Assembly: GCA_900215285.1 (NCBI GenBank)
Contig: OCMG01000004.1
Location: forward strand, 2,588,001-2,652,000
Source: Ensifer adhaerens
GTDB lineage: Bacteria > Pseudomonadota > Alphaproteobacteria > Rhizobiales > Rhizobiaceae
DNA length: 64,000 nucleotides
Reading direction: 5' to 3'
Below, piece by piece: positions 2,798 to 10,998 of this stretch. The translations under genes were made by a program, and so were the position numbers. How positions within the stretch are numbered: position 1 is the first letter of the stretch; the number at the start of each line of letters is the position of its first letter. Under the pieces are notes generated by a model. The model searched no databases, had not been told where the DNA came from, and saw only the letters and a list, made by a program, of their open reading frames with translations.

Positions 2798-4216
2798 TCA
2801 GGCTTTTTCCAGCCAGACCTTACAGGCGGCCAGCGCGCGCGCGCTCATCGCCTTCTTCTTGGCGATCGCCTTGTCCTTGCCGCGGAAACGCTTGATGCCG
2901 TCGGGCCTGACGATAGAGCCAGGCTCCAGTTCCGGGAAGAGGCCGAAATTGACGTTCATCGGCTGGAAGGAGCGCTTGCCCGGCTCCTCGTCGGTCGAGA
3001 GGTGTCCGCCCGTGATGTGGCCGAGCAGGGCGCCAAGTGCTGTTTCCGGCGGTGGCGGAACGATCTCGCGGCCAAGGCGCTCGGCGGCGGCGAAACGGCC
3101 GGCGAGCAGGCCGATGCTGGCGCTTTCGACATAGCCCTCGCAGCCAGTGATCTGGCCGGCAAAACGCAGGCCGGGGCGCGACTTCAGCGTCAGTGAGCGG
3201 TCGAGCAGGACGGGCGAGTTGATATAGGTGTTGCGGTGCAGGCCGCCGAGACGGGCGAATTCGGCATTCTGCAGACCGGGGATCATGCGGAAGATCTCGG
3301 CCTGCGCGCCATATTTCAGCTTCGTCTGGAAGCCGACCATGTTGTAGAGCGTGCCGAGTGCGTTGTCCTGGCGCAGCTGCACCACGGCATAGGCCTTGAC
3401 TGTCGGGTTATGCGCATTCGTGAGGCCCATGGGCTTCATCGGGCCGTGACGCAGCGTCTCGCGGCCGCGCTCGGCCATGATCTCGATCGGCAGGCAGCCG
3501 TCGAAATAGGGCGTGCCTTCCCATTCGTGAAAGCCGGTCTTGTCGCCGGCAATCAAGGCATCAACGAAGGCGTTGTATTGCTCTTCGTCCATCGGGCAGT
3601 TGATATAGTCCTTGCCCGTGCCGCCGGGGCCGACCTTGTCGTAGCGGGACTGGTACCAGCAGATGTCCATGTCGATCGAATCGCGGTGAACGATGGGCGC
3701 GATGGCGTCGAAGAACGCGAGCTGGTCTTCGCCGGTCGCCTTCTGGATGGCCTTTGCGAGGCCGGGCGAGGTCAGCGGGCCGGTGGCGACGATTGCCAGG
3801 TCCCATTCCTCGGGTGGCAGGTCGTCGATCTCCTCGCGCACGACCGTGATCAGCGGTTCGGCTTCCAGCGCACGGGTGACCGCTTCGGAAAACCCGTCGC
3901 GATCGACGGCAAGTGCGCCTCCGGCGGGAACCTGATGCCGATCGGCGCAGGACATGATGAGCGAGCCTGCCATGCGCATTTCCGCATGGATGACTCCCAC
4001 TGCATTGGTCTCCGCATCATCTGAGCGGAATGAATTGGAGCAGACCAGTTCAGCAAGACCGTCTGTCTTGTGCGCGTCAGTACCTCTAACGCCGCGCATT
4101 TCGTGAAGGACGACGGGGACGCCGGCGCGGGCGAGCTGCCATGCGGCTTCCGAACCGGCAAGACCGCCGCCGACGACGTGAACGGGAGAAATGGAAGTGG
4201 CGAAGATGTTTGTCAT
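2798..4216 (-). CDS. trmFO: Methylenetetrahydrofolate--tRNA (uracil-5-)-methyltransferase TrmFO
   Basis: TrmFO makes ribothymidine at position 54 of tRNA, using 5,10-methylenetetrahydrofolate as carbon donor and FADH2 as reductant. The N-terminus has the FAD-binding signature [20 protein letters not shown], and the family segments [11 protein letters not shown] and [11 protein letters not shown] carry the conserved cysteines. The C-terminal part ([20 protein letters not shown], then [11 protein letters not shown]) is complete. The 472-residue length is normal for the family. The ATG at 4216 is chosen because GGAG stands six bases upstream of it; the in-frame ATG at 4228 overlaps that ribosome site. 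Transcribed alone, convergent with the membrane-protein gene. Confidence 0.96.
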
Positions 4217-4297
4217 GGGCGGCTCCATATCATGAGCGCGGGCGCAAGCACGACAAAAAATTCATCATCGGAATTCGAGTCTTCAGCGTAGAATCGA

Positions 4298-4989: not shown

Positions 4990-5360
4990 GGCCTTTTCCT
5001 TCTCTAGGGTTTGGCAACGCGTCTGGCTGCCTCTTCGTCTCTGATCACTGTTATATGTTGCGCCGCAGCAATGATAAAGCGCAATTGTCTCAGGTCACCC
5101 ATGCGCAAAATGCATGGCGTCTTGCAAAGGCCGGATTTTGTTTAGGATTTTTTAACGGATGGGCGTTTTCGCGGCTGCGAGCATTTTCGAGCTGTGTAAG
5201 GCTCGTTTCGTGATTTCGGGACCGTCGGAATGAGGTGGCGGGAGCAATACGGGCGGCGTTCGGAATATCCATTCCGCGCGCGCGGCTGATGCGTGCCGTG
5301 TCGGGCCGCGGCATCACGATGGGACGTGCGAAGTATAAGGAAGCCAATCCCGGAAATTAT
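4990..5360. other. Intergenic region between DUF1127 copy 2 and the sRNA
   Basis: About 370 bases. Long minus-strand frames here lack ribosome sites and coding character. It should contain the promoter of DUF1127 copy 2. No repeat or RNA structure was recognised apart from the sRNA end at about 5361. Confidence 0.45.
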
Positions 5361-5485
5361 AACGCCCGCCGCGGGAGGAGGTGCGGCGGGCGTCATATAA
5401 GCGACTGACAACTGGGAGGAGGAGTGTCGTCAGTCATAAACGAGACGCCCTGGGAGGAGGAGTGGGCAGTCTCGAATTCGAATTT
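5361..5485 (-). ncRNA. Alpha-r14 (NfeR1)-like trans-acting sRNA with three anti-Shine-Dalgarno loops
   Basis: On the minus strand three hairpins follow one another, and each carries the same pyrimidine-rich CCTCCTCCC in its loop. Stem 1 pairs 5469-5474 and 5464-5467 with 5441-5450 (one bulge). Stem 2 pairs 5429-5435 with 5403-5409. Stem 3 is a perfect eleven-pair stem, 5383-5393 with 5362-5372, and is followed by TTATAATTT, so it should also terminate transcription. This is the architecture described for the alpha-r14 family (NfeR1 of Sinorhizobium meliloti), which binds Shine-Dalgarno regions of transporter mRNAs. The length of about 120 bases also fits. The 5' end is estimated. Family assignment is from memory of the motif and architecture. 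Confidence 0.8.
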
Positions 5486-5798
5486 CATGTCTCAGTCCGT
5501 TCAGCAGTTCTCTGCGCCCGTCTGATGATTTGAATATAGATCACGCATTCCATTTTGTGCAGTGCGAAATAATCATACGAGGCATGCACGTTTCGCATGG
5601 CTTTTGTCTATCAACTTTAAGGACGATAACAGACCTTCCTTAAAAGGCTGCTAACATGCTGCGGCCTTGCGTTCGATACATATAGGGAGGCTGACCGTGG
5701 ATTGCGCGGTTTTTTGTTGCGATCTTCATGTCGGGTGATATAGAGGCGGCTTCCGTGCGGGCCGGTTTCCTCGAGGAGAGGGCGGGCCAGCTCTGGGG
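5486..5798. other. Intergenic region upstream of tRNA-Leu
   Basis: About 310 bases that must hold the sRNA promoter (minus strand) and the tRNA-Leu promoter (plus strand). A small inverted repeat with AAGGC/GCCTT arms lies near 5643-5667, and a weak hairpin followed by six T residues lies near 5690-5715. Neither is enough to name a feature. Confidence 0.4.
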
Positions 5799-5883
5799 GC
5801 GGGTATGGCGGAATTGGTAGACGCAGTGGATTTAGGTTCCACCGCTGAAAGGCATGGGAGTTCGAGTCTCTCTACCCGCACCA
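5799..5883 (+). tRNA. tRNA-Leu (anticodon TAG)
   Basis: The acceptor stem GCGGGTA pairs with TACCCGC. The long variable arm typical of tRNA-Leu is present, the anticodon loop reads TTTAGGT with TAG as anticodon, and CCA is encoded. It sits upstream of tig. Confidence 0.95.
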
Positions 5884-6066: not shown

Positions 6067-7560
6067 ATGCAGGTAATCGAAACGCTCGCTGAAGGGCTGA
6101 AGCGCGAAATCAAGGTCGTCATCCCGGCCAAGGACATGGAAGCTCAGATGAACGAGCGTCTTGAAGGGGTGAAGGATCGCGTCCGGATCAACGGTTTCCG
6201 TCCGGGCAAGGTGCCATTCGCACAGCTCAAGAAGATGTACGGCAAGTCGGTGATGGCCGAACTCGTCAACGAGATCGTCCGCGCCCGCCCGAACGAGATC
6301 CTCACCGAGCGTGGCGAAAAGTCTGCTACCCAGCCTGACATCACCATGACCGAGGACGAGGCGGAAGCCGACAAGATCCTCGCTGCCGAAGCCGACTTCG
6401 AGTTCACGATCGCCTATGAAGTGATCCCGAAGTTCGAGCTCAAGGACGTCTCCAAGATCAATGTCACGCGCGAAGTCGTCGACATTGCCGACGAGGAAGT
6501 CGACGCGCAGGTCCTGCAGATCGCCGAAAGCGCCAAGACCTACGAAAGCAAGAAGGGCAAGGCCGCCCAGGGCGACCGCGTCACGATGGACTACCTCGGC
6601 AAGGTTGACGGCGTTGCCTTCGACGGCGGCAAGGACGAAGACGCTGAGCTCGTCATCGGTTCGAACCGCTTCATCCCGGGCTTTGAAGACCAGCTCGTCG
6701 GCCTCAAGGCTGGCGACGAAAAGGTCATCACCGTGACCTTCCCGGCTGATTACCCGGCTGCAAACCTTGCCGGCAAGGAAGCCACCTTCGACATCAAGGT
6801 CAAGGACGTTGCCGGTGCCAAGGACGTCGAGATCAATGACGAACTGGCCACCAAGCTTGGTCTCGAGTCCGCTGAAAAGCTGCGCGAAATCGTTCGCAGC
6901 CAGCTCGAAAGCCAGTATGGCTCGGTCACGCGCCAGAAGCTGAAGCGCCAGATCCTCGACCAGCTCGACGAAATGTATGACTTCGCAACGCCGGAAAAGC
7001 TGGTTTCGGCCGAGTTCGACAACATCTGGCGCCAGATCAACACCGATCTCGCACAGTCGGGCAAGACCTTCGCTGACGAAGACACGACGGAAGACGCCGC
7101 GCGCGAGGAGTATACCAAGCTCGCACAGCGTCGTGTCCGTCTCGGTCTCGTCCTGTCGGAAATCGGCGAGAAGGCCAATGTCGAGGTCTCCGACGAGGAA
7201 ATGCAGCAGTCGCTCTTTGCCCAGCTGCGCCAGTTCCCGGGCCAGGAGAAGGAAATCCTGGATTACTTCCGCAACACGCCCGGTGCTGCCGCTTCGCTGC
7301 GCGCGCCGATCTTCGAAGAGAAGGTCATCGACCATCTGCTGAACGAGATCTCTGTCACGGACAAGAAGGTCTCCAAGGAAGAGCTGCTGGCCGAGGACGA
7401 AGACGAAGGCAAGTCTGAAGGCAAGAAGCCTGCTCAGAAGAAGAAGGCTGCTGCCAAGAAGGAAGCCGCTGCCGAGGCTCCGGCGGAAGAGGCTGCTGCC
7501 GAAGACAAGCCGGCTGCAAAGAAGAAGGCTCCGGCCAAGAAGAAGGCTGCCGACGAATAA
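6067..7560 (+). CDS. tig: Trigger factor (ribosome-associated chaperone and prolyl isomerase)
   Basis: Trigger factor binds ribosomal protein L23 at the exit tunnel and shields nascent chains. The ribosome-binding signature [17 protein letters not shown] is at about residues 41-57. The FKBP-type isomerase domain follows at about 165-250 ([20 protein letters not shown]), and then the helical C-terminal chaperone domain. At 497 residues it is longer than the E. coli protein because of a tail of about 50 residues made of Lys, Ala and Glu after residue 445, a common rhizobial extension. It is followed directly by a strong terminator, so it is probably a single-gene unit behind the tRNA-Leu. Confidence 0.97.
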
Positions 7561-10619: not shown

Positions 10620-10694
10620 TGGCACGCCCTAGGGGAGTCGAACCCCTCTTTTCAGAATGAAAATCTGACGTCCTAACCGATAGACGAAGGGCGC
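10620..10694 (-). tRNA. tRNA-Glu (anticodon TTC), copy 1
   Basis: On the minus strand the acceptor GCGCCCT pairs with AGGGCGT, the anticodon loop is TTTTCAT with TTC as anticodon, and CCA is encoded. The gene is identical to copy 2, which lies 304 bases away. Confidence 0.95.
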
Positions 10695-10923: not shown

Positions 10924-10998
10924 TGGCACGCCCTAGGGGAGTCGAACCCCTCTTTTCAGAATGAAAATCTGACGTCCTAACCGATAGACGAAGGGCGC
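10924..10998 (-). tRNA. tRNA-Glu (anticodon TTC), copy 2
   Basis: Same 75-base sequence as copy 1, including the encoded CCA. It is transcribed toward copy 1 from the conserved upstream block at about 11000-11095. Confidence 0.95.

Follow-up and report, generated by a model that had tools for sequence, protein, structure and literature searches.

Several described systems resemble the locus analysed here. A 2011 survey of the Rhizobiales described members with three or four hairpins carrying CCUCCUCCC, represented by the models SmelA075 and SmelA099 (PMC3927594). The related sRNA NfeR1 of Sinorhizobium meliloti is reported to silence ABC-transporter mRNAs and ntrB, pairing with them through redundant loops (PMC10746234). 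The same report gives the LsrB motif as TGCA-N6-GCAT, places the LsrB site of NfeR1 at -72, and describes an NtrC motif, TGC-N11-GCA, as restricted to plant symbionts (PMC10746234).

An association of anti-Shine-Dalgarno sRNAs with DUF1127 genes is also already known, from ccaF1-CcsR and the CIN1 locus (PMC10253847). In Rhodobacter sphaeroides, RNase E is described as cutting AU-rich sites and maturing the CcsR RNAs (PMC8625941), and in Brucella VtlR is reported to control three DUF1127 genes together with AbcR2 (PMC12595884). Our literature search found no paper treating both DUF1127 and NfeR1. Here we describe an sRNA gene that has features of both systems and lies in a 64-kb stretch of DNA, hereafter the window.

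Results

An ar14 sRNA on the minus strand

An earlier note on this DNA had placed a three-hairpin sRNA of the alpha-r14 kind at 5361-5485 and had named a covariance search with the alpha-r14 model as its check. That search returned a match to Rfam RF02344 with 112 bits against a gathering cut-off of 58.8 (E 6.6e-20), covering model positions 1-123 of 123, and the match lies only a few bases off the proposed range (Table 1). Apart from seven tRNAs, it was the sole Rfam match at the gathering cut-off in the whole window.

The three minus-strand hairpins with one common loop motif were borne out. The 9-mer CCUCCUCCC occurs three times in the 64 kb, each time within a hairpin of the sRNA; CCTCCTCCC has three minus-strand copies, beginning at 5460, 5422 and 5381, and no further copy on either strand of the window. 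When the minus strand from 5480 to 5357 is folded, it forms three separate hairpins in which all three loop motifs are unpaired, with a minimum free energy of -59.5 kcal/mol compared to -29.9 (sd 3.3) in 200 shuffles (z -9.08). The last stem had been called a perfect terminator; it is indeed unbroken, with 15 pairs including one G-U, but the U-tract 3' of it, UUAUAAUUU, is weak. We conclude that the minus strand encodes an ar14 or 'cuckoo' anti-Shine-Dalgarno sRNA, a further member of a known family.

Table 1. Positions in the window of the sRNA, its predicted control elements and the neighbouring genes.
Feature	Position	Strand	Remarks
ar14 sRNA (Rfam RF02344)	5357..5480	minus	112 bits, cut-off 58.8
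Hairpin 1	5441..5474	minus	loop CCUCCUCCC at 5460-5452; from the fold
Hairpin 2	5403..5435	minus	loop CCUCCUCCC at 5422-5414; from the fold
Hairpin 3, terminator-like	5358..5397	minus	loop CCUCCUCCC at 5381-5373; weak U-tract after it; from the fold
GAAATTCGAATTC, candidate RNase E processing site	5474..5486	minus	directly 5' of hairpin 1; putative cleavage
Predicted 5' leader, ~47 nt	5481..5527	minus	57% invariant columns (5533-5481, five species)
-10 element CTATAT	5534..5539	minus	17 nt from the -35-like hexamer; conserved in the alignment
Conserved promoter block GCACTGCACAA	5555..5565	minus	contains -35-like CTGCAC at 5562-5557
LysR-type (LsrB/VtlR-like) box TGCGAAACGTGCAT	5584..5597	minus	at roughly -70 to -57 relative to the predicted start
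Second LysR-type box TGCATTTTGCGCAT	5101..5114	minus	TGCA-N6-GCAT kind, 125 nt before DUF1127a
DUF1127a, 47 aa	4846..4989	minus	PF06568
DUF1127b, 47 aa	4349..4492	minus	PF06568
trmFO, locus anchor	2798..4228	minus	TIGR00137 and NF003739
tRNA-Leu(TAG), locus anchor	5799..5883	plus	
tig (trigger factor), locus anchor	6067..7560	plus	

We aligned 16 of the 24 first copies of the arrangement in which the sRNA precedes the DUF1127 genes (hereafter sRNA-first). In this alignment, 99.4% of the ar14 stem cells are paired, and two-sided changes are found in 19 of 30 stem pairs (in at least one of the 16 relatives each), which none of 500 shuffles matched. CCTCCTCCC is invariant in loops 1 and 2 and CTCCTCCC in loop 3, an invariance that is partly built in because the copies were found by the model and sorted by motif, both of which favour these letters. 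With this reserve, the data support the earlier suggestion that stems change freely while selection holds the loops.

Conservation along the locus is uneven. Invariant columns make up 92% of the sRNA and 11% of the DNA just 3' of it in five close species; across the five closest genomes (L001, L125-L128) the values are 78% for the promoter (5612-5534), 57% for the leader (5533-5481), 11% each for 5346-5300 and 5300-5150, 77% for 5090-4990, 5' of DUF1127a, and 79% for DUF1127a itself. This pattern looks like that of two conserved units, the sRNA and DUF1127a, with near-neutral DNA in between.

Two other products of the same stretch were considered and rejected. The plus strand, too, folds better than its shuffles, though by a smaller margin (z -4.64 vs -9.08), and Rfam at the gathering cut-off matched the minus strand only; a 31-aa frame running from 5488 across the sRNA lacks its ATG in the other five genus sequences aligned.

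Promoter and predicted leader

VtlR is described as a LysR regulator of alphaproteobacteria that resembles LsrB. A box of the LsrB/VtlR kind is present in all six genus orthologues of the window copy, followed by a conserved block and a -10 element, from which a transcription start near 5527 is predicted, ~47 nt upstream of the ar14 model. Relative to this start the box lies at -70, close to the -72 published for NfeR1. On its own, the box shows no enrichment in the window (14 matches vs 9.4 expected), and box and block combined occur once in the source genome. Across 220 loci their spacing is 18 nt in 52 of 52 matches, four of these matches being re-fetches, even though 12-24 nt were allowed.

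Allowing at most one mismatch, 22 of 24 sRNA-first loci have the block 5' of their first cluster. It heads the first cluster in 13 of 44 loci with DUF1127 directly in front, in none of 16 with DUF1127 farther upstream and in 2 of 87 without DUF1127, and reversed controls gave 0 of 171. The literal published promoter, CTTAGAC-N17-CTATAT plus box, was found in none of 16 genomes of one genus, and the NtrC motif TGC-N11-GCA does not occur in 5481-5760.

The distance from the box to the first loop is 85-86 nt in all 11 box-bearing copies of two paralogous groups. For the six orthologues of the window copy it is 138 nt, except for one genome with 166 nt. The conserved -10 element and box thus stand 52 nt farther out than in the paralogues, and by this prediction the extra 52 nt is a leader.

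A GAATT element at hairpin 1 marks the sRNA-first class

The predicted leader carries a GAATTC-containing element just 5' of hairpin 1. In the first set, whose observed counts leave out the contig-edge locus L007 (the shuffled GAATT expectations were computed before its removal), GAATT stands at hairpin 1 in 17 of 24 first copies of the sRNA-first class (0.4 expected) and a -10-like element in 0 of 24 (1.6 expected). In second copies of tandem loci the -10-like element is found in 8 of 10 and GAATT in 0 of 10. For the remaining clusters of this set, GAATT and -10-like elements were counted in 13 and 2, respectively, of 46 with DUF1127 directly in front, in 5 and 9 of 25 with DUF1127 farther upstream, and in 5 and 35 of 82 without DUF1127.

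Because the idea arose from this set, only a held-out set counts as a test. This comprised 49 new loci with 78 clusters, 70 after removal of 8 identical ones, scored with unchanged definitions. Among the held-out first copies, 24 of 25 had GAATT, against 0.5 expected and in 5 of 6 genera, and 0 of 25 had a -10-like element. A single genus supplied 15 of the 25, and for 4 of the 6 genera other species were already in the first set. Second copies gave GAATT in 0 of 24 and a -10-like element in 19 of 24, copies without DUF1127 0 of 15 and 9 of 15; GAATT was seen in 1 of 5 clusters with DUF1127 directly in front and in 0 of 1 with it farther upstream.

Since the GAATT element marks copies that lack a promoter at hairpin 1, we infer 5' processing, that is, that the sRNA-first class is cut out of a longer RNA. 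The consensus of E. coli RNase E is RN-WUU. As a counterpoint, the class with DUF1127 directly in front, for which cleavage is best documented elsewhere, has GAATT in only the 13 of 46 and 1 of 5 copies given above. A weak U-tract was also tried as a class mark and rejected: T-runs of at least 4 occur in 11 of 24 first vs 9 of 10 second copies in the first set, and in 15 of 25 vs 15 of 24 in the held-out set.

Taken together, the following course of events appears to fit the locus best. An LsrB/VtlR-type regulator would bind the box at 5597-5584 and transcription would start near 5527, as the conserved sequence and the published work on NfeR1 suggest; a nuclease, most likely RNase E, would then cleave the leader at the AU-rich GAAUUC that precedes hairpin 1, yielding an RNA of ~120 nt. 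We lean slightly towards these two steps as a pair. Transcription would end at hairpin 3, perhaps incompletely because of the weak U-tract. Finally, by analogy with NfeR1, the three CCUCCUCCC loops would block translation of several mRNAs by pairing with their purine-rich ribosome-binding sites; that the RNA belongs to the ar14 family and works in this way we consider highly probable.

A simpler possibility is an sRNA of the plain NfeR1 type, started right at hairpin 1 without leader or processing. NfeR1 is 122 nt long (coordinates 1667613-1667492 in S. meliloti; PMC7143759), the same length as the Rfam match here, and the window copy and NfeR1 have the LsrB-type box in common. Nevertheless, we regard this as unlikely, given that a -10-like element near hairpin 1 is found in none of the 24 and none of the 25 copies of the class and that the conserved -10 element and box are displaced outward by 52 nt.

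Neighbourhood of the sRNA

The order tig, tRNA-Leu, sRNA, DUF1127a, DUF1127b, trmFO, in which the first two genes point one way and the other four the opposite way, is kept in six of six genus genomes; among named genomes, the nearest loci share ~84% identity with it at tig and trmFO. Judged by this arrangement, the window locus is a DUF1127-sRNA locus of the known CIN1 kind, a point that the earlier note had missed. We scanned named genomes for three spaced motifs, which yielded at least 120 stretches, a sample; among the matches listed, 7 of 120 titles name other phyla, and these were excluded from later class counts. In 179 loci (8 of them re-fetches) with 204 anti-Shine-Dalgarno clusters, a DUF1127 frame lies within 1.5 kb of 113 clusters and of none of the other 91. 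The nearest DUF1127 is on the same strand in 113 of 113 clusters, upstream in 76 and downstream in 37, and in the held-out loci an opposite-strand DUF1127 within 1.5 kb was found for 0 of 78 clusters. Within 1.5 kb upstream of the window sRNA there is no DUF1127 frame.

Between the same anchors, the order DUF1127-sRNA is found in loci of Mesorhizobium, Phyllobacterium, Brucella and Oricola nitratireducens, the order sRNA-(sRNA)-DUF1127 in loci of Sinorhizobium, Shinella, Endobacterium and Rhizobium as well as in the window, and mixed orders in others such as L149, L155 and L163. Rhodobacterales-type genomes contain arrays of 10-12 CTCCTCCC behind a DUF1127 frame (L021:7269-7743, L098:351-826, L051, L061, L082, L104). 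Elsewhere in the window, two tRNA-Glu(TTC) genes lie on the minus strand at 10620-10694 and 10924-10998, with ~230 bases between them.

DUF1127a has a LysR-type box of its own, kept in six of six genus genomes at 125 nt before the ATG in five and 134 nt in the sixth, which makes common regulation of the sRNA and DUF1127a plausible. The hairpins could instead be a cis element, the leader or attenuator of the downstream DUF1127 mRNA, reached by read-through past the weak U-tract. Same-strand DUF1127 genes do follow the sRNA in six of six genus genomes, and a DUF1127 gene of S. meliloti is reported to be under leader attenuation, in a paper that mentions neither NfeR1 nor ar14 (PMC12218461). However, conservation falls to ~11% across 5346-5150 between the sRNA and DUF1127a, DUF1127a comes with its own conserved upstream block and box, and most other copies of the family are situated elsewhere, so that a cis role seems improbable.

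Copies and paralogues

The source genome (5.19 Mb) holds four ar14 matches: the window copy, C4:1160419 and C3:448800 above the cut-off and C4:2223567 below it (55 bits). Matches were found in six of six genus genomes, in 97 of 101 and then 291 of 297 genomes of the family (the second draw takes in most of the first), and in 0 of 14 control genomes. That the window copy is a silent or decaying extra, as the presence of four copies and the Northern blot detection of just one of six S. meliloti copies (PMC7143759) might suggest, is very improbable, since the sRNA ranks with the best-conserved parts of the locus, its stems show compensatory changes, and its promoter is conserved as well.

The fourth ar14-like copy (L004:1466-1578, corresponding to C4:2223567-2223660; L139-L143) scores 49.9-55.5 bits, below the cut-off, in six of six genus genomes. 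It has a motif-free hairpin before the terminator, GATCAGCC-GGCTGATC in five of the six, and all six copies of this group are without the LsrB-type box. The paralogues at L002:1484-1609 and L003:1485-1604 carry an extra CCTCCTCCC hairpin 5' of the three covered by the Rfam model, and a DUF1127 gene lies ~200 nt upstream of the L002 paralogue.

Candidate targets

The window sRNA is best read as acting through NfeR1-like pairing of its loops with mRNAs. The earlier note had put forward aapJ and other genes of the window as plausible targets, which our search did not support. This search used contiguous base matching, with no energy model, on assumed start codons. The 24 bases before the start of the 'aapJ' frame contain at most 3 contiguous loop-complementary bases; the name comes from the earlier note, and the best NCBIfam match of the frame is a lysine/arginine/ornithine substrate-binding subfamily. 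At the listed starts of the other three operon frames there are at most 5 complementary bases, one wobble included. Among the 64 predicted window genes, two candidate starts stood out, with 8 and 7 matching bases, respectively; both starts are doubtful, and neither site is convincing. The ntrB gene, which NfeR1 is known to target, offers just 4 matching bases in a row in six of six genus genomes.

Origin of the sRNA-first arrangement

In three genomes of genus g85 (L195, L202 and L208) the same block and CTATATT precede an open DUF1127 frame, which is followed by the sRNA; the boxes of these three deviate from the strict pattern. A further g85 genome, L149, has box, block and sRNA, but only 81 nt of its DUF1127 frame (L149:1402-1482) match the profile and, on visual inspection, the frame has no start, while it is open in the other three sampled g85 genomes. 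At L155 both kinds of unit occur in one locus, each with box and block. The g85 units, including the decayed frame of L149, and the L155 locus suggest that the window arrangement may have arisen when a DUF1127 frame at the head of the unit was lost.

To look for remnants of such a frame, a profile built from the final 8 residues of DUF1127 proteins was run on leaders and control regions. It scored at p<=0.05 in 3 leaders out of 50, with 2.5 expected, and in 14 controls out of 100, with 5.0 expected; one leader, that of L155, was suggestive (p 0.007). The lack of an excess in the leaders counts against the loss of a reading frame. A trmFO tree (37 rows, 211 columns), with several of its deep forks open, requires 3 changes to account for the sRNA-first order and shows neither a single origin nor a direction of change.

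We offer only tentatively, and with some doubt, the wider scenario in which the ancestral unit was promoter, DUF1127 frame, RNase E site and hairpins, and the Rhizobiaceae lost the frame and kept the LsrB/VtlR promoter and the site, which would make the window copy part of a processed, LsrB-controlled subclass distinct from NfeR1.

Discussion

The family and its mode of action are already known, and the window copy is a well-conserved member at a known kind of locus. If the reading with a leader and processing is true, there would be two kinds of ar14 copy, those transcribed from hairpin 1 onwards and those released from a longer RNA. The amount of the latter would then depend on both RNase E and an LsrB/VtlR-type regulator, the kind reported to control DUF1127 genes in Brucella (PMC12595884). 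Furthermore, the locus would display successive stages between an operon that includes a protein gene and an sRNA gene on its own, and thereby a testable route for the origin of sRNA genes.

Compared with the ar14/alpha-r14 family (RF02344; SmelA075 and SmelA099, PMC3927594), the RNA itself is identical in kind, with three hairpins, variable stems, CCUCCUCCC loops and several copies per genome. The window copy differs in its promoter, which would lie ~47 nt upstream of where transcription from hairpin 1 would need it, and in its weak U-tract.

The likeness to NfeR1 (SmelC397) of Sinorhizobium meliloti, as described in PMC10746234 and PMC7143759, extends to the fold, the loops, a LysR-type box at about -70 and the -10 element CTATAT. 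Unlike NfeR1, the window copy has a predicted leader and GAAUUC before hairpin 1, no NtrC motif in 5481-5760 and no evident complementarity to ntrB. An RNA of 122 nt such as NfeR1 requires a -10 element at hairpin 1, as is seen in the second tandem copies of relatives and unlike the class of the window copy. Thus, of the alpha-r14/NfeR1 design originally proposed, the ar14 family, the fold and the loops hold; because its predicted start lies ~47 nt before the model and the NtrC motif is missing from 5481-5760, the window copy probably has another type of promoter than NfeR1.

The third comparison is with ccaF1-CcsR of Rhodobacter sphaeroides and the CIN1 locus (PMC10253847, PMC8625941). CcsR is described as lying in the 3' UTR of a DUF1127 mRNA and as being matured by RNase E and CcaF1, whereas in the window the sRNA comes first and the DUF1127 genes after it, with no DUF1127 frame within 1.5 kb upstream. 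What the systems share, going by these descriptions, is the placement of anti-Shine-Dalgarno hairpin RNAs beside small same-strand DUF1127 genes and an AU-rich element that may serve as an RNase E cut site.
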